Source: Sediminispirochaeta bajacaliforniensis DSM 16054 (GTDB lineage: Bacteria > Spirochaetota > Spirochaetia > DSM-16054 > Sediminispirochaetaceae). Taken from it: a stretch of DNA of 64,000 nucleotides. Below the pieces are notes generated by a model, which was not told where the DNA came from, did no database searches, and worked only from the letters and a program-made list of their open reading frames with translations. Of the stretch, positions 21,683-42,266 are shown piece by piece (the first letter of the stretch is position 1; each line of letters starts with the position of its first letter). Location: assembly GCF_000378205.1 (NCBI RefSeq), contig NZ_KB899414.1, forward strand, positions 1 through 64,000, written 5' to 3'. A program made the position numbers and the translations under genes.

Positions 21683-24058
21683 TCATTCAGGTCGGTAAGG
21701 GGTCAAGGAATAAAGATATTCTCCCCGCTGAGAACCTTCGCGTAACAATTCAAGCTCCCGGTCAACGGAGGAAGATAACGGCAGCCATACACTTCCAAGC
21801 CCATTATAGGTAGTCACCAGAAATGGGGTCAGGAAAGGCAGTCGTAAAACTCGTTCCGGTATCGTATAATCTGCCAGTTCAATTGCTCCCTGGCGCCCTG
21901 AGAGTTCGGCTGCCCGTTTAACCGCCGCGTCCATCCCTCCGATTTCATCGACCAGGCCCCTCTCCTGCGCGGCCGAACCGCTCCAGACTCGCCCCTGGGC
22001 AATACGATCGACCTCTTCTTTCTTCATATTCCTACCTTCGGCAACGTTTTCGATAAAGTGGTCGTATCCGGACGCAATCATCGCTTTAATCTTTTCCCGT
22101 TCCTCCGCCAGTAAGGGCCGATAAGGAGATCCGAAATCGGCTTCGGGGGATTGTTTCACCGTTTCCACAGCGATCTTATGTTCCTCAAGCAGTCGTGAAA
22201 TATCCGGAGTCATCGCAACAACGCCAATTGAACCGGTCACCGTTTCAGGATAGGCAAAAACGGCATTGGCCCTGGCAGCAATATAATAGGCGCCGGAAGC
22301 CGCCATGCTGCCCATCGAAACGACAACTGGCTTGGCATTCTCTCCGGAAACGGTACGGGAAACCGCCCGGGCGATGGAGTCGGAGGCAAGCAGCCCCCCT
22401 CCTCCAGAATTGATTCTCAGTACGATAGCATCAATACTATCGTCTTCCCTGGCAAGGGCGATGGAACGGAGAGCGGTATCGGCCCCGACAGACTCTCCGG
22501 GAACCCCTTCTCCGCTGTGAATATTTCCGGTCAGATTGATGATGGCAATAGTAAGGGGACGAGGATCACTCCAATCGCGCCGGACCGGTTTTGCAGGAAG
22601 CTCATAGGTTTCGACAACATCCATCGCATCCTCTAGTTCATCCCGATACAGAAGCTTATCTACCAGTCCCGCATCCAGGGCCCTCGAAGCCCGAAGATAA
22701 GGCCCCCCGGCAAGGATCGTTCCCGCATCTCCGGCCAAACGATCTCCTCGGCCTTCCTGAAGGAGCTGCACAACGGCACGTTCCATGTCGGCAACCAAAA
22801 CCGTAAGCTCTTCCCGTTCAGGCTCCCGCATGCCCCCTTCGGTAAACGTATCGAAACCGCTTTTGTATGGATGACTTCTAAAATTCTCAAAATTGATGCC
22901 GTAGGTATCGAGAAAAGCCGCAAAATAGCTCCTCGTTACCGAGACGCCCTTTAGATCAACGCTTCCCTCGGGATGAAGGTATATCTCGGCACCGCAGGCA
23001 GCCGCAAGGAGATAGTCGTCGGTATCAGCGGTATCAAAGTAAAACATCACCTTTTTTCCCTTTTCCCGAAAGTGTTTCAAGGGAACAAGCAATTCCCGAG
23101 CCACAGATAGGGATGAAGCAGGGTGTTCGTTGACAAAGATAATCCCGTCGACGAGGGGATCATCCGCAAGCTCGTTCAGACGGCGAATGTGCTCGCGAAG
23201 CGTAATGGAATCATCGCCCAAAAGCCGGCGGCCAAATCGTACTACCGAGGGGACCTCACGAACAGGCCCGCCGAAACGATAGCGAACGATGGTATCGTTA
23301 TGTGCAAGTCTCGGTCGACTCAAGGCATCGGATGCGACCCTCACGAAGAGACTGCTCTCTTTCCCGGCAGCAAGAGGATCACCATCGGTATTCCGCATGG
23401 TTCCTCCCACCTGAGTACTATAGAGGGCCAGAGATGCTCCGAGACGTACCGTCTCCGACTCCAGATCGTAGGAAGCATACAGTTCGAGACCCTCGACCGG
23501 CTCACTTCGAAGGGAGAGCAGGGGGGCGGAAACACCGGAATCGTCAACGGTGAGATCAAATCCCAGGCCGAGAAACGATGCCGATCCCCCGAGAAGGGCC
23601 AGAGGGCGGAAAGCCACTCCTGCAGTGGCGGAAGAAGAGCCTGAAGAGGGGATATCCCACCGCAGGCCGAAACCGAATCCGTCGGAAGGACGCAGCAGAA
23701 AACCTCCGGTCCAGGAAGGGGCCGAAGAGCCAAAATCGGTTTCAAGAAGCGCTCCCATATAGGCATTGCGAAAAATAGGGAAGGCAAGATAGAACGCATG
23801 GCTCCACGAACATCCTTCCCAGGAAGGGATATATCCCAGATGCCGACCATTAACATAGAAAGCCCCATCGTCGAAGTCTCCATCCGAGTAGCCGGAAAGC
23901 TCCAGGGCGAAGCCGGAGGCCCCTCCCCAGGCAGGCAAAGCGGGGTTGACCAAGGGAGCCCGATACCCATTGCCGAGGGCAACCCCTCCTTCCGACGGAG
24001 CGGCAAAAAGGGATAAGGCAAAGCAAAGCAACAAACAAAGAATAAAAAAACGCTTCAT
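21683..24058 (-). CDS. sppA: SppA-type (S49) signal peptide peptidase with an extra N-terminal domain
   Basis: A 791-residue exported protease. Residues 1-20 are a Sec signal peptide. Residues about 25-260 are rich in Gly, Ser and aromatic residues in alternating pattern, resembling an outer-membrane beta-strand domain. The rest has the double-length SppA (67K) layout. The first S49 half holds the catalytic lysine (Lys399 in HPYKSGFD) and the second half the nucleophile (Ser588 in SMAASGAYY), as in E. coli SppA. SppA degrades cleaved signal peptides; the added domain suggests another location or substrate. ATG 24058 overlaps the upstream receptor's TGA as ATGA, so translation is coupled. Confidence 0.88.
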   Translation of the reverse strand: MKRFFILCLLLCFALSLFAAPSEGGVALGNGYRAPLVNPALPAWGGASGFALELSGYSDGDFDDGAFYVNGRHLGYIPSWEGCSWSHAFYLAFPIFRNAYMGALLETDFGSSAPSWTGGFLLRPSDGFGFGLRWDIPSSGSSSATAGVAFRPLALLGGSASFLGLGFDLTVDDSGVSAPLLSLRSEPVEGLELYASYDLESETVRLGASLALYSTQVGGTMRNTDGDPLAAGKESSLFVRVASDALSRPRLAHNDTIVRYRFGGPVREVPSVVRFGRRLLGDDSITLREHIRRLNELADDPLVDGIIFVNEHPASSLSVARELLVPLKHFREKGKKVMFYFDTADTDDYLLAAACGAEIYLHPEGSVDLKGVSVTRSYFAAFLDTYGINFENFRSHPYKSGFDTFTEGGMREPEREELTVLVADMERAVVQLLQEGRGDRLAGDAGTILAGGPYLRASRALDAGLVDKLLYRDELEDAMDVVETYELPAKPVRRDWSDPRPLTIAIINLTGNIHSGEGVPGESVGADTALRSIALAREDDSIDAIVLRINSGGGGLLASDSIARAVSRTVSGENAKPVVVSMGSMAASGAYYIAARANAVFAYPETVTGSIGVVAMTPDISRLLEEHKIAVETVKQSPEADFGSPYRPLLAEEREKIKAMIASGYDHFIENVAEGRNMKKEEVDRIAQGRVWSGSAAQERGLVDEIGGMDAAVKRAAELSGRQGAIELADYTIPERVLRLPFLTPFLVTTYNGLGSVWLPLSSSVDRELELLREGSQRGEYLYSLTPYRPE

Positions 24059-26250
24059 TTTTCCGTTCCTATGCAAGGCGTCTCATCAGCTTCCTCATCT
24101 TCCTTAAAAAGGAACTTTTCCATGGCCTCGTGGGCACCCTCGGCAGAACGAAGGTTCTCTTCCGCACTCTGTCCCGCACCTTTCACGACCGAATTTAGGT
24201 TCTGACTACTCTCATGAACCCGAACAATACTATCGCTGATTCCCCGACTATTCTCTTCGAGGGTATCGATCTCGTGTTTGATGGCCTCGGCACCGGAAGC
24301 TATCTCGCCGGCATCTTCCCTGATGGCGGTTGTCGACTCCTTCAGACCATCCAAAGCGACCTGAATCTCCTTACTGCTGACATCCTGCTCCTGCATTGAA
24401 GATTTTATCTCCGCCTCAATCCGTACCACCGTACGGATGAGCTCTCTAATGGAAGAGAAATTCGAACCGGCCTGACGCGCCGATCCGGTGATCTCCTGAA
24501 ATGCGGCGACAATTTCTCGGAGGCTCTGCTCCGTAGATCTGGACTGTTCGGAGGTGTCTTCCGCAAGTTTTCGAATTTCGTCGGCAACAACGGCAAATCC
24601 CTTTCCGGCTTCTCCTGCATGGGCGGCCTCTATGGCTGCATTCATCGAAAGAAGGTTGGTCTGGCCGGCTATGGCGGATATCAGCGTATTGGTTTCGAGA
24701 AGCTCCTCCGAACGTTCGTTGATTCCTTCGATCATGGCGATGACGGAAGCAAGCTGCTCCTCTCCCACCTGAGAGGTCTCCGAAAGCTGGTCGAAATGCG
24801 TACTGGAGGTTATGACCGAATTGCTGACCGACTCGATATTGGCAAGCATCTCCTCGATTGCAGAGGAAGATTGGAGAATAGCATTCGATTGATCTTGCAG
24901 TCGCTCACCCAATGTACGGATCCGTCCGGAAATAATCTTTACCGAAGAAGAGACCTCATTCAGTCCTCTTGTATTGTCGGACCCCTTCATAATGACCTCG
25001 GTAATGGCGTCGCCTATCAAAGAAAAGGCCTCGTCGGCAGCCTTCATATCCTCACTGAATGCTTCCGCCCTACCGCGCATAGAAACGGTAATATCGCGTA
25101 ACTTTCGAAAGCTGCAGTTCAACATGCTACTCAGCTCATTAAAATCATGTGCAAGCTTTCCGAACTCATCGGAACGATTGGTTTTTATGGATGAACGAAA
25201 ATCACCCGATGCGATGAGGCCGAAGTGCGAAGAGACTTCTTTGAGGGGTTTTACAATATGTCTCGAACTGGCCGCAACGGAAAAAGCGAGTAGAAATAGT
25301 GCCGCACATGCCATAAGAAGCATAACAAGGGCAATCCTTCGGGGAACCGCGTTGATGAGGCTTTGGGGAATCGAAACGATATAGGTCCAACCGGTATATT
25401 GTCCGGCGATCTCGATTGCACTGATCATCTGGCGAACCTGTTCCTTGCTGACTTTGTGCTCGGTTACCGTCTCTTCCGTCGTCCATTCTGCCACAGCCCG
25501 GGAAGCGGCACTTACTGTATCCGCAGAATGTATGTCGGAGAGATACCGGCCAATACTTTCAGAAAAGGAGTCCGCAACAATTAAACCGCTCTCGGAAGCG
25601 ATGGTCGTGAAACCACCGCTGAACTTCTCAATGGCATCGATCATCTCCCCGAGTCCCTTCAGAACAAGATCGCACCCGACAACCCCGAGAAATTGTCCTT
25701 TGGAATCAAGAAGCGGCAGAGACATTTTTGTCATATAGACAACGCCGTTCCCTCCCGCCTGCGCGACCTTGGGTTCCGACAGTACAAGCCCGCCGCGCTT
25801 TTTGGAAAGCTGGTAATAATCGGCCTTGTAGGCCTCACTTCCCGGGCTTTCCCGTGAGGACCTGATCTGTCCGGATACTCTATCCGCCGAGATGCCGGGA
25901 ATATCACCACATACTTCAGGTTCAAAAAGGGTCCAAACCGACGAGAGGTCCTCATGGTCCTTCACCATTCCGACCATGAGAGTTTCCATCCGGTCACCCA
26001 AAAAGACGTCATTGTCCTCCGATATGAGAGCTTCGCATAAAAAACGAAGTTGAGATAACAAGACATAACTTTTTTCCAGTTCCGCCTCAACAATTCTGGC
26101 GCCCTGATCCGCATACATTTTTGCTTCCTGGTCGGCATACGTATGCAGTGCGTCTTCCACCGTCAGACCAACGAAGAGGAAGGTCCCGGCAAACAGGAAC
26201 GCCCCTATGCCGAGAAAGGTCAACAAGAGACGACTTCGTAAGCTTTTCAT
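24055..26250 (-). CDS. Methyl-accepting chemotaxis protein
   Basis: A 731-residue chemoreceptor: first membrane helix at about 7-28, a Cache-type periplasmic sensing domain to about 295, a second helix near 297-320, a HAMP segment, and a long cytoplasmic coiled coil. The signalling tip reads [24 protein letters not shown], followed by [14 protein letters not shown]. No C-terminal CheR-tethering pentapeptide is seen. ATG 26250 is chosen because a -10 element lies six bases upstream and no Shine-Dalgarno site precedes any candidate, so the mRNA is probably leaderless. The ligand is unknown. sppA overlaps its stop. Confidence 0.95.
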
Positions 26251-26256
26251 TGTATT

Positions 26257-26286
26257 ATTGTACGGTAGAAATCCCGTATGGTACAA
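26257..26286 (-). promoter_or_regulatory. Promoter of the first chemoreceptor gene, predicted leaderless
   Basis: TTGTAC (26281-26286) and TACAAT (26257-26262) on the minus strand, 18 bases apart. The -10 ends six bases before the ATG, so transcription should begin at the start codon itself. Confidence 0.5.
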
Positions 26287-26332
26287 CAGAGAAAGAAAAA
26301 GAAAACTCCTTCGACTTCTATAAAATAAAATC

Positions 26333-26361
26333 TTGCACCCCCTGATAATTCGGAGTATACT
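26333..26361 (+). promoter_or_regulatory. Strong promoter of a structured leader
   Basis: TTGCAC (26333-26338) and TATACT (26356-26361) are 17 bases apart. Transcription would begin near 26368, more than 200 bases before the next start codon. Confidence 0.75.
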
Positions 26362-26367
26362 GGGTAC

Positions 26368-26560
26368 GGATAAGTCGTACAGGGTCTTGTAATCCCCCTT
26401 GTATGGAAAGTCGGGTAACCTGCAGATGCAGGAGAACCACCTGATTTTACCGTGAATGCGAAAACCGACAATAGAATGAGCTCATCTGTTGACAGGATGT
26501 ACCTCGTGGCGCAATAGCTTTCGTCCTGGGTTTCTCTGTCTCCGTCGACTTGCATCTGAA
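26368..26560 (+). ncRNA. Candidate structured RNA or leader upstream of the radical-SAM gene
   Basis: The 190-base segment between the promoter and the following gene folds by eye around a closing stem: AAGTCG (26372-26377) with CGACTT (26546-26551), plus ACAG/CTGT inside. Inner helices are a GTCGG/CCGAC arm (26410-26414, 26465-26469) capped by the CCTGC-AGAT-GCAGG hairpin (26419-26432), and a 7-bp arm CAGGATG/CGTCCTG (26493-26499, 26522-26528). No terminator separates it from the gene, and its CCCCCTT could pair with the ribosome-binding site. It could be a 6S-like RNA, given its length and closing stem, or a riboswitch. I could not match it to a known class. Confidence 0.45.
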
Positions 26561-26585
26561 AAATAGATATGAAGGAAGGTATTTC

Positions 26586-27971
26586 ATGAAACCGAAGAGA
26601 TTCAGGTCCTATTCTGCCGCTAATATTGACTCAATTACTCAACTAAAACGACTTTCGGAATCCCAACTGAGGGAGATGCTGGCCGTTGCAAAGGTTTTGC
26701 CTTTTCGAACCAACAATTACGTCGTCGAAGAGCTGATAGACTGGAACAACATTCCCGAGGATCCACTCTTTCAACTTACCTTTCCTCAGCCGCAGATGCT
26801 TCACCAAAGTGATCTCGGACGAATAACAAAGCATCTTGCAACCGGAACCGGCTATTCCCCGGAACAGCTGAAAAGAGAACAGTATCGTATCAGAACCGCC
26901 ATGAATCCACATCCGGCCGGGCAACTACAGCTTAACGTTCCCGAAGAGCAAGGAGAAATGCTCCAGGGTATGCAACATAAGTACGACGAAACCGTACTTT
27001 TTTTCCCAAAGCAGGGACAAACCTGTCATGCATATTGCACCTATTGCTTTCGATGGGCACAATTTATCGGTAACAAAGAGCTGCAGATGGCTTCAGGTGA
27101 AGTCGAACCGCTGATTAGATATCTCGATAGACATCCCGAGGTAAGCGACCTCCTTATTACCGGAGGCGATCCCATGTTTATGCGAAGCAATGTTCTACGA
27201 CGGTATATCGAACCGCTGCTTCGTCATCGTCCCGGGAATCTCCAAACCATACGTATAGGAACGAAAAGCCTTTCGTACTGGCCCTATCGCTATCTCTCAG
27301 ATAAAGATAGCGATGATTTGATTTCACTTTTTCATGAAATTACCACAGCAGGATATCACCTTTCGATCATGGCCCATTTCACGCATATTCGAGAGCTGTC
27401 CACCAAGGCGGTGGAAGCCGCAATACGAAGGATCAGGGGAACCGGTGCGATTATCCGCTGTCAGTCGCCAATCGTACGTCACATAAACGACGACGCCTCA
27501 ATGTGGGCGCAAATGTGGCGTCGCGAGGTACAGCTTGGAATGGTTCCCTATTATATGTTTATTGCCCGGGATACCGGCCCAAAGGCTTACTTCGACATCC
27601 CCATTGCCGAAACTTTCAAGCTTTTCTCCGATGCATACCGACAGGTATCGGGGCTGGCACGGACGGTACGAGGACCAAGCATGTCCGCAAAGCCCGGGAA
27701 AATCCTCGTCGACGGAATCACGGAGATCGAAGGGAAAAAATACTTCGTACTCAAAATGATACAGGGCAGAGAAGCCGCCTGGGTAAACAAGGTGTTTTAT
27801 GCCAGGTATGACCCGAAGGCAAGCTGGATCACCGAACTAAAGCCCGCTTTTGGAGAAAGATGCTTCTTTTTCGAGCCAAACGGCAGAGGACCTCAAATGC
27901 CATTGAAGCAATTGCGAAACGCCGCAATGGAAGCTATCCCCGAAGCAGCAATCTCCATACACCGAAGCTGA
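26586..27971 (+). CDS. Lysine 2,3-aminomutase-like radical SAM protein
   Basis: A 461-residue KamA-family enzyme. The radical-SAM cysteines are 147, 151 and 154 in CHAYCTYCF; LLITGGDPMFM binds SAM, and KPGKILVDG near residue 335 is the probable PLP-lysine loop. KamA enzymes use a 5'-deoxyadenosyl radical and PLP to move amino groups between carbons 2 and 3. The zinc-binding cysteines that make classical lysine 2,3-aminomutase a tetramer are not seen, so this is a divergent relative; its substrate may be lysine, glutamate or another amine. GAAGGAAGG precedes ATG 26586. It lies behind a structured leader with its own promoter. Confidence 0.85.
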   Translation: MKPKRFRSYSAANIDSITQLKRLSESQLREMLAVAKVLPFRTNNYVVEELIDWNNIPEDPLFQLTFPQPQMLHQSDLGRITKHLATGTGYSPEQLKREQYRIRTAMNPHPAGQLQLNVPEEQGEMLQGMQHKYDETVLFFPKQGQTCHAYCTYCFRWAQFIGNKELQMASGEVEPLIRYLDRHPEVSDLLITGGDPMFMRSNVLRRYIEPLLRHRPGNLQTIRIGTKSLSYWPYRYLSDKDSDDLISLFHEITTAGYHLSIMAHFTHIRELSTKAVEAAIRRIRGTGAIIRCQSPIVRHINDDASMWAQMWRREVQLGMVPYYMFIARDTGPKAYFDIPIAETFKLFSDAYRQVSGLARTVRGPSMSAKPGKILVDGITEIEGKKYFVLKMIQGREAAWVNKVFYARYDPKASWITELKPAFGERCFFFEPNGRGPQMPLKQLRNAAMEAIPEAAISIHRS

Positions 27972-29918: not shown

Positions 29919-30085
29919 TACCTGCGACTTTCCAAACCACACATCAAGAAAAGCCATCTCATCACCACAAGTACCTCTTGAAAGCATCCTTGCCTACCAG
30001 CTATAGTAGGCTCAGGTATTAATCCCTTGAATAGTAAAGATTTCTAGGGGTAACACACAAAGAACAACCTACCAAGGAGCAATAT

Positions 30086-30298
30086 GTGATAGGACAAGGT
30101 TTAACGCTCATGGTCGTGGGTATGGCAGTAGTATTTGTATTATTGGTACTACTAGTGTACGTCATGAAGTTGCTTTCCTTTGTTGTTAATCGGTTTTTTC
30201 CTGATAAAGAGGAAGAGGTCCAACCGAAGACACAAAGGGCAGGAGAGGCTGACATTCTTGCAGCCATCGCTTCGGCGGCAGCATACCACAACAGTTAA
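30086..30298 (+). CDS. oadG: Oxaloacetate decarboxylase gamma chain-like protein
   Basis: A 70-residue protein with one transmembrane helix (about 5-30, MVVGMAVVFVLLVLLVYVMKL) and a short charged tail, the usual form of OadG, which scaffolds the alpha and beta subunits at the membrane. GTG 30086 is used because CAAGGAGC lies five bases before it. The gene precedes the alpha and beta subunits, the standard oadGAB order. Identity rests on size, topology and position. Confidence 0.88.
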   Translation: MIGQGLTLMVVGMAVVFVLLVLLVYVMKLLSFVVNRFFPDKEEEVQPKTQRAGEADILAAIASAAAYHNS

Positions 30299-30315
30299 AG
30301 GTTAAAGGGGATTTC

Positions 30316-32112
30316 ATGAAAAAGCGCGTAGATTTTATGGTAACGGCCTTCCGAGACGGTTTCCAATCGGCTTTCGGAGCACGAGTGCTGACCAAAGACT
30401 TCCTTCCCGCGGTCGAAGCGGCCGTTGATGCAGGAATTACCCACTTCGAGGCAGGCGGCGGAGCCCGTTTTCAAAGCCTCTATTTTTATTGTAATGAAGA
30501 TGCATTCGACATGATGGATCAGTTTCGCCAGGCGGCGGGACCAGATGCCAACCTCCAGACCCTTGCGAGGGGGGTGAATGTCGTCGGGCTGGACAGTCAG
30601 TCGAGAGATATCATCAATCTTCATGCAAAGATGTTCAAAAAGCACGGAATGACCACCATCAGGAACTTCGACGCCCTCAACGACGTCAACAACCTGATCT
30701 ATTCCGGCCAATGTATCGTTGATGCCGGTCTGAAACACGAAGTGACCGTCACCATGATGGAACTTCCTCCGGGAGCAAAAGGTGCCCACACACCGGAATT
30801 CTACATGACTGTTTTGAAACAGATACTCGATGCCGGTATCAAGTTCGATAGCATCTGTTTCAAAGATGCATCGGGAACAAGCGTCCCCAGCAAGGTCTAC
30901 GAAACCATCAAACAGGCACGGGCAATGCTCGGTGCGGATGCCCACATAGTGTTCCACAGCCATGAAACCGCAGGAACAAGCATATTGGCTTACAAGGCCG
31001 CATTGGATGCCGGTGCAAATCAGGTCGATCTTTCCATGGCACCCGTATCGGGCGGGACTTGTCAGCCCGACATCATCACCATGTGGCACGCCCTTCGGGG
31101 AACCGAGTACGATCTCGGCATCGATATCGAAAAGGTACGAAAGGCCGAAGCCGTCTTCAAGGAGTGCATGAAGGATTATTTTGTTCCACCTGAGGCAACC
31201 GCTGTCGAACCGCTGATTCCTTTCAGCCCCATGCCGGGAGGAGCCCTTACCGCCAACACCCAGATGATGCGCGATAACGGCATCCTGGATAAATACTCTG
31301 AGGTTGCAGCAGCCATGGGCGAAGTCGTCATGAAAGGTGGCTACGGAACATCCGTTACCCCAGTCAGTCAGTTCTATTTCCAGCAGGCCTTCAATAACGT
31401 GATGGTAGGCCCTTGGAAAAAGATTGCGGACGGCTACGGGAAGATGGTTCTTGGATATTTTGGAAAGACTCCGGTCGCACCGGACCCTGAAATCGTTAAG
31501 CTTGCTAGCGAGCAGCTGGGACTGGAACCCACAACCAGAATCCCGGTGGACATCAATGATGAAGATCCTTCCAAGGGCATAGGAGCCGCAAAGAAGATGC
31601 TCGAAGAGGCGAAACTGCCGATGAGTGACGAAAATATCTTCATTGCCGCAGCCTGTAAGGAAAAAGGAATTCAGTTTCTCAAGGGAGAAGCCAAGGTCAA
31701 CGTACGAAAGATCGATCCGAAGGCCGCGAAGGCAGCCGGAGGAGAGGCTAAATCGGGAGCCGGAAACTATACCGTCAACGTGGGCGGCAAACGGTTCAAC
31801 GTCAAGCTCGAAGGGAATACCGCCCTTGTCAACGGCAAAAGCTACACCGTTGAAGTGGGCGAGGGAACGGATGCAGGAACACCGGCAGCCGGCGGAGCAG
31901 GACAGAATGTCGAAGCCCCCATGCCCGGCCTGGTACTCCGCATCGAGAAAGAGGTTGGCGACACCATTGAAGAGGGTGAGTTGCTTCTTGTTCTCGAAGC
32001 CATGAAGATGGAAACCGAAATTCACGCACCCTGTTCCGGAACCATTACGGAAATTCCGGTTAAGCAGGGCGATCAAATGAAAGCGGGCGACATCCTGGCC
32101 GTCATCTCCTAA
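30316..32112 (+). CDS. oadA: Biotin-dependent decarboxylase alpha subunit (OadA-like)
   Basis: A 598-residue carboxyltransferase with a C-terminal biotin carrier. The TIM-barrel domain has FRDGFQS at 13-19 (Arg, Asp and Gln conserved; the usual sequence is RDAHQS), the carboxylated Lys in CFKDASG near 178, metal-binding His-Ser-His near 213-215 and GGTCQPD. A Gly/Ala-rich linker leads to the biotinyl domain with Lys564 in EAMKM. It removes CO2 from a 2-oxo acid such as oxaloacetate, and the beta subunit couples this to Na+ export. The changed motif sets it apart from standard OadA, so its substrate may differ. It lies 17 bases after oadG. Confidence 0.9.
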   Translation: MKKRVDFMVTAFRDGFQSAFGARVLTKDFLPAVEAAVDAGITHFEAGGGARFQSLYFYCNEDAFDMMDQFRQAAGPDANLQTLARGVNVVGLDSQSRDIINLHAKMFKKHGMTTIRNFDALNDVNNLIYSGQCIVDAGLKHEVTVTMMELPPGAKGAHTPEFYMTVLKQILDAGIKFDSICFKDASGTSVPSKVYETIKQARAMLGADAHIVFHSHETAGTSILAYKAALDAGANQVDLSMAPVSGGTCQPDIITMWHALRGTEYDLGIDIEKVRKAEAVFKECMKDYFVPPEATAVEPLIPFSPMPGGALTANTQMMRDNGILDKYSEVAAAMGEVVMKGGYGTSVTPVSQFYFQQAFNNVMVGPWKKIADGYGKMVLGYFGKTPVAPDPEIVKLASEQLGLEPTTRIPVDINDEDPSKGIGAAKKMLEEAKLPMSDENIFIAAACKEKGIQFLKGEAKVNVRKIDPKAAKAAGGEAKSGAGNYTVNVGGKRFNVKLEGNTALVNGKSYTVEVGEGTDAGTPAAGGAGQNVEAPMPGLVLRIEKEVGDTIEEGELLLVLEAMKMETEIHAPCSGTITEIPVKQGDQMKAGDILAVIS

Positions 32113-32130
32113 GAAAGAAACGAGGTAGCT

Positions 32131-33288
32131 ATGAATTTAGGAAGTGCTTTGCACAATCTATGGATATCCACGGGGCTCGTAAATTTTGAAGTCGGCCAAG
32201 TTATCATGATCCTGGTCGGCTGCCTGCTCATCTTTCTGGCCATCAACAAGAAATTCGAACCCCTTCTGTTGTTGCCGATCGGTTTCGGCGGCATACTTGC
32301 CAATATTCCCCTTGCGGGGATCGCCGAGCATACCGGATTTATCGGCATGATATACGGCGTCGGTATAGATACCGGTATTTTCCCTCTGCTCATTTTTATG
32401 GGTGTCGGAGCAATGACCGATTTCGGCCCGCTGATTGCAAACCCGAAGACGGCCCTGCTCGGGGCGGCCGCACAGTTTGGAATCTTCACTACTCTGCTCG
32501 GAGCCTTGGCATTGGGAACCCTTCCGATTTTCGGATTTAATCTTTCCGATGCGGCGGCAATCGGAATCATCGGCGGAGCCGATGGACCAACCTCCATTTT
32601 TCTCGCAAGTCAGTTATCGCCGCGATTATTGGGGGCCATTGCCGTAGCAGCCTACAGTTACATGGCCCTGGTGCCGATCATACAGCCGCCCATCATGAAA
32701 TTGCTTACCACCAAGGAAGAACGATCCATCAAGATGGAACAGCTCAGGCCGGTTTCAAAGAAGGAAAAGATTCTTTTCCCCATTGCCGTTCTCGGTATCT
32801 GCATCATTCTTCTGCCCAGTGCCACACCGCTTATTGGTATGTTGATGTTCGGGAACCTGCTCAAGGAGTCTATGGTTACCGAAAGGCTCTCCAATGCTGC
32901 ACAAAACGAACTGATGAATATTGTCACCATCATGCTGGGACTTACCGTAGGTTCCAAACTTCAGGCCGATAAGTTTCTCAATTTTGAAACCCTCGGGATT
33001 CTCATCCTTGGGCTTATTGCCTTCTCAATCGGGACAGCCGCAGGTGTGCTGCTTGCAAAGTTGATGAATAAGCTCAGCAAGAAGCACCCGATCAATCCCC
33101 TCATCGGTGCCGCCGGTGTATCCGCAGTACCGATGGCCGCCAGAGTTGCCAACAAGGTAGGAAAAGAAGCAAACCCCCAGAACTACCTTTTGATGCACGC
33201 CATGGGGCCGAATGTTGCCGGTGTTATCGGATCCGCCGTTGCGGCCGGTGTTCTGCTTTCCATTGTCCCTGTGATGATGGGCGGTTGA
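32131..33288 (+). CDS. oadB: Sodium-pumping decarboxylase beta subunit
   Basis: A 385-residue polytopic membrane protein with about ten hydrophobic segments. Family motifs are [20 protein letters not shown] near 98-117 and [13 protein letters not shown] with Asp151, the Na+/H+ binding aspartate. It decarboxylates carboxybiotin and exports Na+, building a sodium gradient that can serve flagellar motion and transport. AACGAGGT lies before the ATG, 18 bases after the alpha subunit. A strong terminator follows. Confidence 0.96.
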
Positions 33289-35320: not shown

Positions 35321-36040
35321 TTATGTCACTGGAATAACAAATTTAAAGCGGTCTCCCCGAATCAGCTGTCTGCATCGATGGATAGGTCTGCTATTGCCGT
35401 CATACACATAGTCTTCCATAAGAATGAGTGCACTCTTATTCTTAATTCCCAAAAGTTCCGCCTCATTGGGCGAAGCATAACACAACTCGATGATCTTTGT
35501 AGCCTTTTGGGGTACAATTCCTCTCTCACGCAATATCCCATAGAGTGATTCTTCCAAATTCTCTTTGAGCAGAAACAAAAACTCCTGCGTAAAATGAAGA
35601 TATTCGATAATGACAGGTTCATCATCGGCATAGCGAACTCTAATCACTTCAATGATCTTCTGATCCGGAGAAGCATTGAGGACGTCCGTATCAATATCAT
35701 CCGGATTAATCATTTTCACGCTGATAACCCGTGCGGAGGGAATCATGTTTTTAAGCTGGCAGATATCGGAAAAGCCCATAAACTCTTCAATATTACGTTC
35801 TATTTTCTTATTAATGACAAAGGTGCCTTTCCCCTGCTTTTTGACCAATAGATGCTCTTCTACAAGCTTATTTATCGAGTTACGCACAGTAATCCTGCTG
35901 ACATCAAACTCTTTGCTCAACTCCGTTTCCGACGGTATGCGAGTATCGTAAGCGTATGTTCCATCTGCAATTCTTTTTCGTATCACCTGAACAATTTGTT
36001 CATACAGAGGCACACTATTGGACTTACTTATATCGTCCAT
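35321..36040 (-). CDS. GntR/HutC-type regulator (likely fructosamine-responsive)
   Basis: A 239-residue repressor-type protein. The N-terminal winged helix (about 11-75) contains IPSETELSKEFDVSRITVR and KQGKGTFV, typical of GntR regulators, and the C-terminal UTRA domain (about 95-235) would bind a small phosphorylated ligand. It is the last gene of the minus-strand Amadori-compound operon, and E. coli frl has a UTRA regulator (FrlR) in a similar place. A fructosamine phosphate as ligand is inference. It converges with the upstream dehydrogenase gene, nine bases away. Confidence 0.9.
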   Translation of the reverse strand: MDDISKSNSVPLYEQIVQVIRKRIADGTYAYDTRIPSETELSKEFDVSRITVRNSINKLVEEHLLVKKQGKGTFVINKKIERNIEEFMGFSDICQLKNMIPSARVISVKMINPDDIDTDVLNASPDQKIIEVIRVRYADDEPVIIEYLHFTQEFLFLLKENLEESLYGILRERGIVPQKATKIIELCYASPNEAELLGIKNKSALILMEDYVYDGNSRPIHRCRQLIRGDRFKFVIPVT

Positions 36041-36134
36041 ATTCCTAAATCCTTTTCTTTGTCGAAATTACCTAATATGTAGTGTACCCAAATATCCCAT
36101 AAAAAGCTATTGTTGTCGGTGTGTGCAGTTGGTG

Positions 36135-37025
36135 TTACGAATATTGGTGGTTATCATGCCTGAATACCAGTACCACTTCAAGCAATAACGATACAATGAT
36201 GATCAATAAAAAGAGAACATCTGTCAATGAAGGAGCCTCTCCCAATATAAGCAGGACCCAAAGGGGATTCATCACAGGCTCAATCAAAGTGATACAAGAA
36301 GCTTCCAAAGAGGAAATGCTCTTGATCCCAAGCCCGAACAGGATATAGGAAACCACATTTACCGTTACAGAGGCAAAAAAAATGATGAAAAGCTCATCTT
36401 TTGTAATAAGAAGTACATGATAATTATCATAAGGATGTGCAAGCAGGAAAAAAACGAGTGCACTGGCAGCATTAACCACCGCTACCACAAAAAAGGTATC
36501 AAGATCGGCAAGGCGTTTCATGGCTCTGGTAAAAAGAGCAAAACCGATTCCGCAACAGAATGCCGGTAGCAGCATGGGAAAAGAAAAATCCCGAATCGTT
36601 GCAATGGCATTCATAACAACACCACATAGCATGAGTAGTTTCGGGTATTCCTGCCGTATCGAAATATATCGATTTCGAAAAAGATAAAAGATGAAAAGAT
36701 AGACGGGAGCAGTATATTGCATAGCAATAGCGGTGGCAGCCCCCAAGAGCCGAGTTGCAATGACAAAGCCCCCTACATAAAGGGAATAGCTAAGGCTTAC
36801 CACCACCAGGGGTTTCCAAGCAGATCTGATTTGTTTTAGCTTGTGCCCTCCGCAAAAGGGCCACAAAATGGCTGCCGTAAGGCTATTCCGATACAAAAGA
36901 TAGATAAAAGGGAGTGTTTTAATCCCTCTTACAACAACCCCGGAGGTACTCCACAGTAGTGCTGCAAAAAGGACCTGCAACACCCCTTTTGTTGCAGCAG
37001 GAGTCCTGTGTTCTCTTTGTTCCAT
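36135..37025 (-). CDS. EamA/DMT-family transporter
   Basis: A 296-residue inner-membrane protein with ten hydrophobic helices in two EamA repeats of about 140 residues; each opens with an LLWSTSGVVVR-type or FALFTRAMK-type segment. DMT proteins mainly export amino acids and metabolites. It lies 21 bases after the second sugar permease in the same direction, so it belongs to the fructosamine operon. Export of the amino acid released from the Amadori compound is a plausible but untested role. Confidence 0.88.
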   Translation of the reverse strand: MEQREHRTPAATKGVLQVLFAALLWSTSGVVVRGIKTLPFIYLLYRNSLTAAILWPFCGGHKLKQIRSAWKPLVVVSLSYSLYVGGFVIATRLLGAATAIAMQYTAPVYLFIFYLFRNRYISIRQEYPKLLMLCGVVMNAIATIRDFSFPMLLPAFCCGIGFALFTRAMKRLADLDTFFVVAVVNAASALVFFLLAHPYDNYHVLLITKDELFIIFFASVTVNVVSYILFGLGIKSISSLEASCITLIEPVMNPLWVLLILGEAPSLTDVLFLLIIIVSLLLEVVLVFRHDNHQYS

Positions 37026-37046
37026 GCTCTTTGCTCTTGTATTACC

Positions 37047-37919
37047 TTATCCTTTTACGGCTCCAGAGGTGAGCCCTCGGATAAAGTGTTTCTGAAGAAG
37101 CATAAAGACAACAATCATCGGAAGTGTTGCGATGATGATTCCGGATAAAAGTACTACATAATCAATACGGAGCTGTCCTTTGAATGCCATAAGGCCAACA
37201 GGAATGGTCATCTTTTTTATATCCTCAATGAACACCAAGGCAAACATAAACTCATTCCAGACAAACTGGAGGTTTACCAACGCACAGGAAGCGAGTATGG
37301 GTTTACTCAAAGGAATGATGATGCTTTTAAAAACCTGCCAGCTATTGTATCCGTCAATGTAGGCGGCATCCTCCAGCTCTCCGGGAATCGACAGCATGTA
37401 GGCCCGTATGAGAAATGTCGAAAACGGTATTCTGAAAGCAATATAGGGAAGAATCAATGCCGCATAGGTATTATACATGCCAAGTTTTGTAAGCATCTTA
37501 AACAGAGGAACCAGGGCGACCTGTTCTGAAAGGGTCATTCCTCCAAGAATGATAAAGAAAATAAGCCTGTTGCCTTTAAAGGAAAATCTGCTGATTCCAT
37601 AGGCTGTCAAAGCACTGACCATAACAATCAGGATCAGGGAGACGGAACTGACGACAATCGAGTTCTTGTAATAGGCGGATAGTCCTTGAATCCACGCGTT
37701 TTGATAGTTTTCAAAATGGAGTCCCTCAGGAAGGGACAAAGAGTTGAGAAATAATTGATTGTTCGTTTTAAGTGAATTGATGATCATCCACCCAAAAGGA
37801 AGAAGAACCAACACCACAAGCAAAAGCATCAGGACATGTAATGCTATACCAAGTAACAGACTCTTTCGCTTTTGCACGCTCCAAGAAGGAATAACACGAA
37901 AATCTTTGGTCGACTCCAT
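37047..37919 (-). CDS. ABC sugar transporter permease (MalG type)
   Basis: A 290-residue membrane subunit with six predicted helices. The EAA loop (ELEDAAYIDGYNSWQVFKSI, about 190-210) is the contact for the ATPase. It starts one base after the stop of its partner permease. No ATPase gene is present in the operon, so a shared MsiK/UgpC-type ATPase from elsewhere is expected. Confidence 0.95.
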   Translation of the reverse strand: MESTKDFRVIPSWSVQKRKSLLLGIALHVLMLLLVVLVLLPFGWMIINSLKTNNQLFLNSLSLPEGLHFENYQNAWIQGLSAYYKNSIVVSSVSLILIVMVSALTAYGISRFSFKGNRLIFFIILGGMTLSEQVALVPLFKMLTKLGMYNTYAALILPYIAFRIPFSTFLIRAYMLSIPGELEDAAYIDGYNSWQVFKSIIIPLSKPILASCALVNLQFVWNEFMFALVFIEDIKKMTIPVGLMAFKGQLRIDYVVLLSGIIIATLPMIVVFMLLQKHFIRGLTSGAVKG

Positions 37920-37920
37920 A

Positions 37921-38796
37921 CTACTCCTCCCCCGACCTTGCTATGCGTAGATTCAACAACGAAATAGTAAACGTTATGATTAAAATGACTATGCCGACGG
38001 ATGCGGCCATACCAAGATCATCATAGAGAAAGGCTTGCTGATACAGATATGTCCCTAAAACCTGAGTACTGTTGCCCGGTCCACCTGAGGTAGTGACATA
38101 CACTTCGGTGAAGAGCTTAAATGCACCGATGATGGTAATAATAGAACAAACGACAAGTTGCTCTTTCACAGAAGGTATCGTGATATTGATAACGCGCTGA
38201 AAAGAATTCGCCCCGTCGATTCGGGCGGCTTCATAGTACTCCTGAGGAACCTTTTGAATCGCGACAATCATCAATATTGTGATATATCCGGTAAATTGCC
38301 ACTGACTCATGGCTATGATTGCGAAGATTGCTATCTGGCCCTCGCCAAGCCATGCATGCTGCAGGGAATCGAGACCGATACTCCTGAGTAGGGAATTCAA
38401 TAATCCCATCTTAGGTGTATACACAAATTGCCACAGCAAACCAACCGCAGTCAAGGACATCAGGGCTGGAAAAAAGAAAACGTTCCGATACAAAACACGT
38501 AACGGACCGCATAACTTCGACTCAATTAAGATAGCAAGGAAGGTACCGAATCCTACCTGGACAATTAAGGAAATAAGAACATAGAGAATATTATTCCGTA
38601 AAATAACCAGAATGATCGGATCAGTACATAACCTCTGATAGTTTTTTAGCCCGACACATGTCATCCCTCGGGAATAGGAACTCAAAGAAAAAAAGCTGTA
38701 CACAAAGTTTGCAAAAACAGGAATATAGACAAAGCCCATAACAAGCAGTAGACCGGGAAGTACATACAGATATGGTGTCGATTGTTTGACTTTCAT
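37921..38796 (-). CDS. ABC sugar transporter permease (MalF type)
   Basis: A 291-residue permease with six predicted helices and the EAA loop EYYEAARIDGANSFQRVINI near 195-215. ATG 38796 is chosen because GAGG precedes it; the frame to 38829 starts upstream of that site. It follows the binding-protein gene by 62 bases. Confidence 0.95.
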   Translation of the reverse strand: MKVKQSTPYLYVLPGLLLVMGFVYIPVFANFVYSFFSLSSYSRGMTCVGLKNYQRLCTDPIILVILRNNILYVLISLIVQVGFGTFLAILIESKLCGPLRVLYRNVFFFPALMSLTAVGLLWQFVYTPKMGLLNSLLRSIGLDSLQHAWLGEGQIAIFAIIAMSQWQFTGYITILMIVAIQKVPQEYYEAARIDGANSFQRVINITIPSVKEQLVVCSIITIIGAFKLFTEVYVTTSGGPGNSTQVLGTYLYQQAFLYDDLGMAASVGIVILIITFTISLLNLRIARSGEE

Positions 38797-38858
38797 GAAA
38801 ACCTCAAAGAGGTACCGGGCATGCCACAATACTCGGTACCCGTATATTGAATTACAAA

Positions 38859-40145
38859 CTAAAATTCCGATCTGACGATCTTTGCCAGATCCTGAATATC
38901 CTTCATAAGGGCTTCCGGCGTGATATCTCCGTTTGTCAGCTCAGATACACCGGTAAGATATCTGTCTACCAATTTCGCGTGGAGATCATTATCAAGCCAA
39001 TAGGCAAGCCCGGAAGCATTAAGAATCATGTTGTATGCATCGCGGATCGGCTCATCGGTAAATGAGCCGTCAATTTGCCCCTTTGTCCCGTTGAACCAGC
39101 GAATCTCTCTAATCTGCTTTTTCCCGACCTCCGGGCCTGTCAGGTATTTAAGAAATGCCACAGCCTCATCGGGATATTTCGTCTTACTCGAACACCAGAA
39201 CCCCTCTGGAGCACCTGTAATATATCCCTGATCACCCTTACCATCGATAACGGCAGGAAATGGAAACATCCCATATTTAAAGGGTGTTGTCATAGCATCT
39301 TCAAGGTAATTCACCTCAATTGTTTCCATATACATCATCGCGGTTTCCTGATTCGCGAAGCTTTGTCGGGCCATCTCATGGGACAATCCGTTGGGATAAT
39401 CATTTACATACTGCATAAGTTCTTGATACAGTTCTAACGCCCTGACATATCCGGGATCAGTAAAGCTCCCCGTCTCCGGATTGTAATCCCGTAGGCGGGT
39501 CTCGTTATCTACAACTTTCTGATTCAATGTACCAATGTAATGTGATGAAGGCCAAATCTCTTGGTTCCCATATGCGATGGGAGTGATGCCTTTGGCTTTA
39601 AAGGCTTTGCAGACGGCTATCAGTTCTTTATAGGTCTTCGGTATCGTTATTCCGTATTTATTAAAAAGTGCTTTGTTATAGTAGAAGGCTTTACCGCTTA
39701 CCCGAAAGGGCATACCATACAGTTTTTCCTTGTAGTAAAAGGGTTCGACCAAACTGGTGATCATATAATTCTGCCATTGTGAGTCCCCCTCGTAATAAGG
39801 GGTCAGATCCAAGACCAGATTTTCACGGATGAATCGATTTGAAAAATCACCTACCCAACCAAAAAAAATATCAGGACCTTGTTCAGAGCCGAGAACAACT
39901 TTCAGTTTTTCCTTGTAAGGAGCATTTGCCGCCGATACCACTTCAATGTGCACATTCGGGTGGGATGTTTCATACTCTTTAATTACCTGAGCAATGAAAG
40001 CACTGTAATTGGCTTCCGGAAAACGATGAAACAACTTAAGGGTAATAGTATCTCCACTATTCGCTTCCTGTTTACCTTCCGACCACACAAGCGGGATCGA
40101 AAAAACTACAACCAAAACCGCCAATAATACCACTCTCTTTTTCAC
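38859..40145 (-). CDS. ABC transporter sugar-binding protein
   Basis: A 428-residue family-1 extracellular solute-binding protein. Residues 1-22 form a Sec signal peptide ending near LVWSEG; there is no lipobox cysteine, so it is probably soluble in the periplasm. LKLFHRFPEAN at the mature start and KLYGMPFRVSGKAFYYNKALF near 155 are typical of the family. The start is GTG 40145 with GGGAGGTAATT directly before it. By context it should bind a fructosamine, but sugar specificity is not readable. Confidence 0.93.
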   Translation of the reverse strand: MKKRVVLLAVLVVVFSIPLVWSEGKQEANSGDTITLKLFHRFPEANYSAFIAQVIKEYETSHPNVHIEVVSAANAPYKEKLKVVLGSEQGPDIFFGWVGDFSNRFIRENLVLDLTPYYEGDSQWQNYMITSLVEPFYYKEKLYGMPFRVSGKAFYYNKALFNKYGITIPKTYKELIAVCKAFKAKGITPIAYGNQEIWPSSHYIGTLNQKVVDNETRLRDYNPETGSFTDPGYVRALELYQELMQYVNDYPNGLSHEMARQSFANQETAMMYMETIEVNYLEDAMTTPFKYGMFPFPAVIDGKGDQGYITGAPEGFWCSSKTKYPDEAVAFLKYLTGPEVGKKQIREIRWFNGTKGQIDGSFTDEPIRDAYNMILNASGLAYWLDNDLHAKLVDRYLTGVSELTNGDITPEALMKDIQDLAKIVRSEF

Positions 40146-40245
40146 AATTACCTCCCTGTGAATGATGGAATCATCCTTTTTGGTTTTATTTCTTTGCCTG
40201 TGAAAATCTTTTTCAGTATCCCTCCTTCAAAACCTTGATTTTCTA

Positions 40246-41106
40246 TCAATACTGGCATCCGTACCCAAAGGAGCCGTGCTTCATGCAATTTTGTGTCGCA
40301 AAAACAACGGCTGCGGCCAAGGCGAGCCGGATCTTGCTCTCCTCCATATCCTCAGGGTGTTTTCCATCGGCCCTGCGCTTCAAAATTTCAAGAGAGTGGA
40401 CTAAAAAGGCCGTTAACAAGGAATCTCCGGCTCCCATGGAATCGACGATATGTATAGGAATCGCATTCTGATTAATCCGAAGATCACCTACGGCAACAGA
40501 GACTCCACGCATTCCTTTCGAGGCTATAATAATCTTGCACCCAAACTTCTGTATGGATGTAATGAGCTCATCGATCTCGTCATCAGGTAAATGGCTACAG
40601 GATAAGGCAGCCGAGAAAATATAAGGACAAACCTTTTCGCATCTCTCCGCGGTAAAACTGGTCGAAAAATCATAGGATAGATACGGATTCAACGAGCTAA
40701 TGTGCGGCAAAAAATCGTCAAGATAGCTAAAACAGCTTGTATGAATCAAATCAAAGGTTTTTATGTATTGGTCATCTATATAGTTCAGTATGATCGGATG
40801 TGTTTTCGCAACACCTCCTTTGTTGGATCCCACAAAAACCCTATCTCCGTTGCGAATCTCTACTTCGGCAAATCCGTTTTCTCCGGCTTCTACTCTTGTC
40901 CTTGAAATATCAATATCAAGTTCACGTAAAACAGAGAAAATATGCCATGCAGGCAGATCATCCCCTATAACTCCCATATATGCGGAATGGCAATGCAGGT
41001 GCTTTGCATATACGCTGAAATTCAGGGCGTTCCCACCCGGATACATGATCCGATCCGTCCGATATTTGTCTACAACATTATCTCCGAGTCCCAATACTCT
41101 CAGCAT
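40246..41106 (-). CDS. frlD: PfkB-family kinase, fructoselysine 6-kinase-like
   Basis: A 286-residue sugar kinase. It matches E. coli FrlD at the ends and in its motifs: GDNVVDKY near 8, GGNALNFSVY near 24, GDDLPAW near 49, ASKGMRGV and the catalytic GAGD in SMGAGDSLLTAF near 225, and an HGSF-type end. FrlD phosphorylates fructoselysine at O6 with ATP in the cytoplasm. It lies 27 bases after the FrlB-like gene and 100 bases before the binding-protein gene. The attached amine (lysine, asparagine or other) cannot be told. Confidence 0.8.
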   Translation of the reverse strand: MLRVLGLGDNVVDKYRTDRIMYPGGNALNFSVYAKHLHCHSAYMGVIGDDLPAWHIFSVLRELDIDISRTRVEAGENGFAEVEIRNGDRVFVGSNKGGVAKTHPIILNYIDDQYIKTFDLIHTSCFSYLDDFLPHISSLNPYLSYDFSTSFTAERCEKVCPYIFSAALSCSHLPDDEIDELITSIQKFGCKIIIASKGMRGVSVAVGDLRINQNAIPIHIVDSMGAGDSLLTAFLVHSLEILKRRADGKHPEDMEESKIRLALAAAVVFATQNCMKHGSFGYGCQY

Positions 41107-41133
41107 GCCTTATCCCTCGCCTTTACGTCTCAG

Positions 41134-42111
41134 TTAATATTTGACTTTCCACATGTATCGTCTGGTCATCAATGGATGCTTACGAATATATGCCAGCTCC
41201 TCATTGTAAAGGGCAACAATGTTCGTCAACACAAGAGGAGAAAAATATTCGGAAACGGTATCATCAATTACATTAATTCCTAAATCCCGAACATCGATCG
41301 TGTAGATCTTTGCGGCGTAACGTTTCAGAAATGAAAGCACACGCTCATCAAGAGGGCGAGTCCTCCCCTCACTTAAAAACAGCAAGAACGGGGTCTGCGT
41401 ATCTGCGATTTCCAGGGGGCCATGAAAAAATTCCCCGCTGTGGATGCTTGAGGAATGGATCCACTGCATCTCTTTTAGAATGCAGATATCCTCGATATAT
41501 GCGGAACCAAAACTTGCTCCGCTGCCGATCGTGTAGATAAGCTTTTCAAGCGCATTTTCCTGTGCAAATTTTCTTGCCGCAGGCCGTACCATCTCTTTGG
41601 CCCTGGTAACGACGGAATCAAGCGCCTCGAATCCCTTCATTGCGGCATCGTAATACTTCCACCCCTCAAGTTGATTGAGGACCTCAATCGCAATTCTGAG
41701 TCCCTTACTGGCTTTCTGTTGCGCCTCAGACGAAGCAGGTCCCCATTCATAAATAATTGTCCGGTCGCCGTATTTTGTAATTTCCGATCCTTCGGCATAG
41801 CTAAAGGCTATGGTCGAGGCACCCTTCGATCTTGCAAGCTTAATGGCTTCAATCGTCTCGGGTGTGGTGCCCTGATGAGAACAGGCAATGACAAGAGAAT
41901 TTTTGTCCAACGATGCGGGAGTTGCATGGACAAATTCATTAGCAGAGTAGTAGCCGATCCTCCTAAGTTTTCGGCTTTCGCTCTCCAGAAGGAACTTACA
42001 GGGATAAAAGGCTGCAATCGATCCACCACAGGCGGTAAAAAATACCTTGTCGATTCCACCTACATCTTTTTTTGCCTTCAAAATATCGGCAATAATTTGT
42101 TCTTCAAGCAC
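41134..42111 (-). CDS. frlB: SIS-domain deglycase, fructoselysine-6-phosphate FrlB-like
   Basis: A 325-residue protein with two sugar-isomerase domains related to GlmS. FrlB-type features are SHQGTTPET near 95, SEAQQKASKGLRIAIEVL near 145, and EMQWIHSSSIHSGEFFHGPLEIAD near 230, containing the catalytic Glu and His region. FrlB cleaves a fructosamine 6-phosphate to glucose 6-phosphate and a free amine. The start is GTG 42111 with AAGGAGAG before it. It is the first gene of the operon, directly behind the promoter. Other SIS deglycases (FraB, GfrF) act on fructose-asparagine or glucoselysine, so the substrate stays open. Confidence 0.82.
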   Translation of the reverse strand: MLEEQIIADILKAKKDVGGIDKVFFTACGGSIAAFYPCKFLLESESRKLRRIGYYSANEFVHATPASLDKNSLVIACSHQGTTPETIEAIKLARSKGASTIAFSYAEGSEITKYGDRTIIYEWGPASSEAQQKASKGLRIAIEVLNQLEGWKYYDAAMKGFEALDSVVTRAKEMVRPAARKFAQENALEKLIYTIGSGASFGSAYIEDICILKEMQWIHSSSIHSGEFFHGPLEIADTQTPFLLFLSEGRTRPLDERVLSFLKRYAAKIYTIDVRDLGINVIDDTVSEYFSPLVLTNIVALYNEELAYIRKHPLMTRRYMWKVKY

Positions 42112-42133
42112 GACTCTCTCCTTATGTTATATT

Positions 42134-42174
42134 ATGTTTAAAGACATCTTATAACGTATTATTACTATTTGCAA
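42134..42174 (-). promoter_or_regulatory. Promoter and candidate operator of the fructosamine operon
   Basis: TTGCAA (42169-42174) and TAAGAT (42146-42151) on the minus strand are 17 bases apart. The imperfect palindrome ATGTTTAAAGACAT (42134-42147) covers the end of the -10 and the start site, a position suited to repression by the GntR protein of this operon. Confidence 0.5.
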
Positions 42175-42214
42175 GTCAATATTGCTGTCGTGCTGCTTTT
42201 TGGTGAATGGGCAT

Positions 42215-42243
42215 AAAAAAACCGCCCCCGAAAGAGGGCGGTT
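42215..42243 (-). terminator. Intrinsic terminator of pckG
   Basis: On the minus strand an 8-bp GC-rich stem (AACCGCCC/GGGCGGTT) is followed by seven T; it lies 23 bases after the pckG stop. Confidence 0.9.
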
Positions 42244-42266
42244 GATAGTAACAGTGAAGTAGGGAA

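Follow-up and report, generated by a model that had tools for sequence, protein, structure and literature searches.

The stretch analysed here, hereafter the window, comprises 64,000 nucleotides of contig 9 of the 4.57-Mb genome of Sediminispirochaeta bajacaliforniensis DSM 16054 (G000). Its genus is represented in the genome collection by this genome and one other, the relative G001 (4,653,970 bases). A divergent chemotaxis-receptor gene (24055–26286, minus strand, extent by longest frame) and a kamA-like gene (26586–27971, plus strand) are separated by an intergenic region, most of which (26368–26585, plus strand) appears to encode a structured 5′ leader for the kamA-like mRNA, to judge from the 87% identical counterpart preceding this gene in G001 and from structure-keeping changes between the two. 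Upstream lies a promoter-like site read from the sequence, TTGCAC-17-TATACT (26333–26361, plus strand), with the −35 hexamer at 26333–26338, a 17-nt spacer and the −10 hexamer at 26356–26361, both hexamers being identical in G001. A preliminary description of this DNA had called the promoter near-consensus, which is an overstatement; the site is plausible and its −10 good, but the −35 matches at three of six positions and a consensus promoter scan scored the site below its cut-off and did not list it. The transcript would start near 26368, giving a leader of ~218 nt, and the placement of this RNA before the ribosome-binding site of the kamA-like gene was correct.

The product of the downstream gene (461 aa) is, as had been proposed, a KamA-like radical-SAM protein (NCBIfam; PDB 2a5h, lysine 2,3-aminomutase, E 5.5e-17). 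Its score falls far short of what any named aminomutase model in NCBIfam requires, that of lysine 2,3-aminomutase included (TIGR03820, 94.9 bits against a curated cut-off of 525.4), and it is a distant relative of the 2a5h enzyme. Genes for a GlpA-like flavoprotein and an SdhB-like Fe-S protein lie between the kamA-like gene and oadG (30086–30298, assigned by position and a hydrophobic start). The likely oadG (70 aa), oadA and oadB of a Na+-pumping decarboxylase span 30086–33288, 3′ of the kamA-like gene. Positions 29988–30315, covering oadG and the spacer before it, are 98.8% identical in G001, above the surrounding genes, and the spacer has an ordinary fold (z −0.8). Elsewhere in the window, ~7 kb carrying seven minus-strand genes (35321–42256) has no counterpart at the same place in G001.

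Taken as a whole, 26368–26560 of the window genome folds at −55.6 kcal/mol, which is not beyond chance (z −1.15, 32 of 200 shuffles). Lower values were obtained for 26376–26460 (z −2.48; −3.17 for the corresponding stretch of G001) and 26368–26500 (z −2.06; −2.62 in G001), and the full G001 leader reached −2.49. As z is low there while the full window fold gives only −1.15, the structural signal is carried by the 5′ two thirds of the leader. In the consensus fold of both species this part begins with a 10-bp hairpin, P2 (26375–26406, plus strand; 26375–26384 paired with 26397–26406), in which G-U to G-C and U-G to U-A replacements keep the pairs. This arm is retained in G001. The capped side arm also reported, P3 (26407–26448, plus strand), was recovered at 26409–26448 as an outer helix (26409–26416/26439–26446) with an inner hairpin (26419–26423/26428–26432, spanning 26419–26432), and all of its pairs are kept in both species, within a 5′ half that has the z values of −2.48 and −3.17 given above. 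A 59-nt core (26437–26495, plus strand) follows, overlapping the end of P3.

Further on, a three-way junction (26466–26547, plus strand) is predicted from closing pairs 26466–26469/26544–26547 and hairpins 26470–26490 and 26491–26540. It appears in the two-sequence consensus and in G001 folded alone, with less certainty when only the window sequence is folded; the predicted folds of the 3′ half of the leader differ between the two species when each is folded by itself. The closing stem AAGUCG/CGACUU of the preliminary description is not intact in G001 (CGGCCU), and the consensus places its 3′ strand in the three-way junction. Coding explanations of the region were also considered. Short frames in the core (e.g. 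GTG 26452 to TAG 26517) have no recognisable Shine-Dalgarno (SD) sequence, and an indel between the species puts the longer of them out of frame, hence a leader peptide was rejected, as was a 102-aa minus-strand frame over the leader (26247–26555), where changes show no codon-position bias (13/10/12).

The leader occupies the same place before the same gene in G000 and G001 and was found nowhere else, so the linkage is conserved, in two genomes only. At 87% identity, compared with 95.4% over the whole aligned window, its sequence changes faster than its neighbourhood, and the changes are structure-friendly. All 63 pairs of the two-sequence consensus form in both species, about ten of them having changed on one side. 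Compensatory changes in related spirochaetes had been put forward as a test of the structure; between the two sequences compared, one-sided pair-keeping changes were present, but two-sided changes affected none of the 63 pairs. One-sided changes of this kind favour the structure without proving it. As this consensus came from the very sequences being compared, an independent control was run: substitutions identical to the observed ones, together with indels matched in size, were placed randomly along the window sequence. For the real pair the expected number of shared base pairs is 33.5, compared with 18.2 ± 7.5 in the controls (reached by 12 of 400), and the G001 leader folds at −67.1 against −54.0 ± 4.5 (reached by 1 of 400), hence structure is kept better than under random mutation. 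Changes also avoid the core, where a single difference separates the species; it is the longest such run, equalled 18 times when the alignment columns were shuffled 10,000 times. Together, the controls and the unchanged core support selection on the leader RNA, short of proof by covariation. The position of the leader, its linkage to the gene and the structure-favouring substitutions are borne out by the sequences.

Beyond these two genomes the leader was not recovered. When 297 genomes of the class were searched with a covariance model of its core (R1, 131 positions), G000 and G001 alone gave matches beyond chance. Weaker matches in other spirochaetes were at chance level for 297 genomes (E 0.02–0.6 per genome), the best two (G473 and G353) overlap reading frames, and all were discarded. 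The model had no match ahead of the genes for 80 KamA-like homologues sampled across many phyla, nothing was found in viral and plasmid collections, and no kinship to the leaders of the homologues was detected by nhmmer, by blastn or by covariance models run each way.

Three Spirochaetaceae/Spirochaetes MAGs (L039:2846–2985, L047:2846–2985 and L051:2846–2984), whose kamA-like proteins are about 58–60% identical, carry another folded leader before the orthologous gene. This one is ~140 nt long, runs up to the SD and is preceded by a TTGCAT or TTGCAA promoter-like site with a 17-nt spacer. In its consensus 5–6 pairs have changed on both sides among the three sequences, and four of five measures were reached by <5% of shuffles, which for three sequences is no more than suggestive. 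Rfam holds no match to this leader at gathering score, and its own model (R2) matched neither the window, even without filters, nor any of 393 genomes of the phylum. Both this leader and that of the window are strongly folded, lie directly before the SD of an orthologous kamA-like gene and follow a TTGCA-type −35 with a 17-nt spacer; however, they show no detectable relation by sequence or covariance model in either direction. Because orthologues in these three MAGs carry folded leaders, the comparison suggests that leaders may control the kamA-like gene in at least two lineages. In L047 oadG and then oadA follow the kamA-like gene, and in L051 oadA does. The closest homologue (L032) likewise has a strongly folded leader (z −2.6). 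Across 82 leaders of homologues, however, the mean z was −0.84 against −0.47 in upstream controls computed with fewer shuffles, hence the excess of folding is only weak and the KamA-like family as a whole is not marked by folded leaders. Separately, Desulfoluna and a related MAG (L048, L049, L052, L057 and L063, at about 2790–3010) share a conserved 200-nt leader before the kamA-like gene, with a strong promoter (TTGACA) and only one-sided pair changes.

No Rfam 15 family matches the stretch at gathering score, and at E ≤ 10 an 18-nt chance match was the sole hit in 26240–26620, with neither 6S RNA nor a riboswitch among the results. Known riboswitch classes in Rfam 15 were found neither in the window nor at 20 homologous loci, in line with the earlier failure to match lysine, cobalamin or other classes. 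Paper searches returned none linking lysine aminomutase with a riboswitch, those naming aminomutase, riboswitch and radical SAM being off-topic by title. The leader resembles the unclassified structured 5′ leaders and candidate riboswitches among the cis-regulatory families of Rfam in that a folded RNA lies between a promoter and the SD of a metabolic gene, with a conserved core and structure-keeping changes. It differs from these in being known from one genus, in having no Rfam match or demonstrated ligand, and in having no terminator or clear anti-SD switch.

The SD sequence GAAGGAAGG (26571–26579, plus strand; ATG at 26586) is invariant in G001. In the predicted folds part of it is paired in the window sequence, and the pairing is stronger in G001; its partners are the sequence just upstream (leader positions about 183–189) and the gene start. 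Pairing with a CCCCCTT run, which had been thought to mask the site, is predicted in neither species. There is no intrinsic terminator-like site between the leader RNA and the gene, and a transcription attenuator was rejected as the leader contains no terminator. For the same reason, control of translation or mRNA stability would be the likeliest. The leader is most likely the folded 5′ untranslated part of the kamA-like mRNA and a lineage-specific cis-regulatory element. Transcribed from near 26368, it would form a hairpin, a capped arm and the conserved core, with a three-way junction immediately ahead of the ribosome-binding site, and would tune translation start or mRNA stability and not transcription ending. 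The trigger could be a ligand or a protein, or else a rearrangement that depends on temperature or ions. The start site and this regulation, with its mechanism and signal, are what we infer.

We hold with moderate confidence that the kamA-like mRNA carries a lineage-specific, folded cis-regulatory leader through which translation or mRNA stability is controlled. Against it count the reliance on two sequences, with no two-sided change and 87% against 95% identity, and the unexceptional full fold, the differing 3′ folds and the lack of a strong trend across the family. An ordinary long 5′ UTR that folds incidentally and has no dedicated regulatory role would suit the z of only −1.15, a sequence changing faster than its surroundings, confinement to one genus and a two-sequence consensus lacking two-sided changes. 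We regard such a UTR as rather unlikely, since it accords poorly with the random-mutation controls (12 and 1 of 400), the uneven spread of changes around the 59-nt core and the low z in G001. The leader is real, genus-restricted and probably functional; it is ordinary in kind, with no named family.

A special case of the cis-regulatory leader would be a riboswitch of an undescribed class, sensing the substrate, product or cofactor of the KamA-like enzyme. The conserved core flanked by more variable helices, the metabolic gene downstream with GlpA-like, SdhB-like and Na+ decarboxylase genes after it, and the absence of an Rfam match would all fit. Known riboswitch classes are usually spread across many taxa, however, and this leader was not found in the 295 other genomes of the class or before the 80 homologues, which makes such a riboswitch doubtful. 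A slightly smaller chance still is given to the fuller version, a new class restricted to the genus that senses a metabolite of a KamA-family enzyme linked to the Na+-pumping decarboxylase, with an unrelated RNA in the same role in sister spirochaetes. The preliminary description had also raised 6S RNA (RF00013), which the leader recalls in its length of ~190 nt and possible end-to-end stem. Unlike 6S RNA, it has no covariance-model match and is continuous with an mRNA, and the ordinary 6S RNA of this genome lies on contig 14 (G000:C14:19687–19867, 63.8 bits). We reject 6S identity because no model matches at E ≤ 10, the genome has its own 6S elsewhere, and no terminator would yield a free 190-nt RNA, although processing in place of a terminator may give the leader RNA a free 3′ end. 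For the same reasons, and with the closing stem not kept in G001, it is very improbable that the promoter of the gene also serves a divergent second 6S-like RNA or another trans-acting RNA.

Should the cis-regulatory leader prove regulatory, it would offer a way towards the substrate of a KamA-family enzyme that is widespread but unnamed, and the two folded leaders, unrelated yet placed ahead of one and the same gene, would represent independently evolved RNA control.
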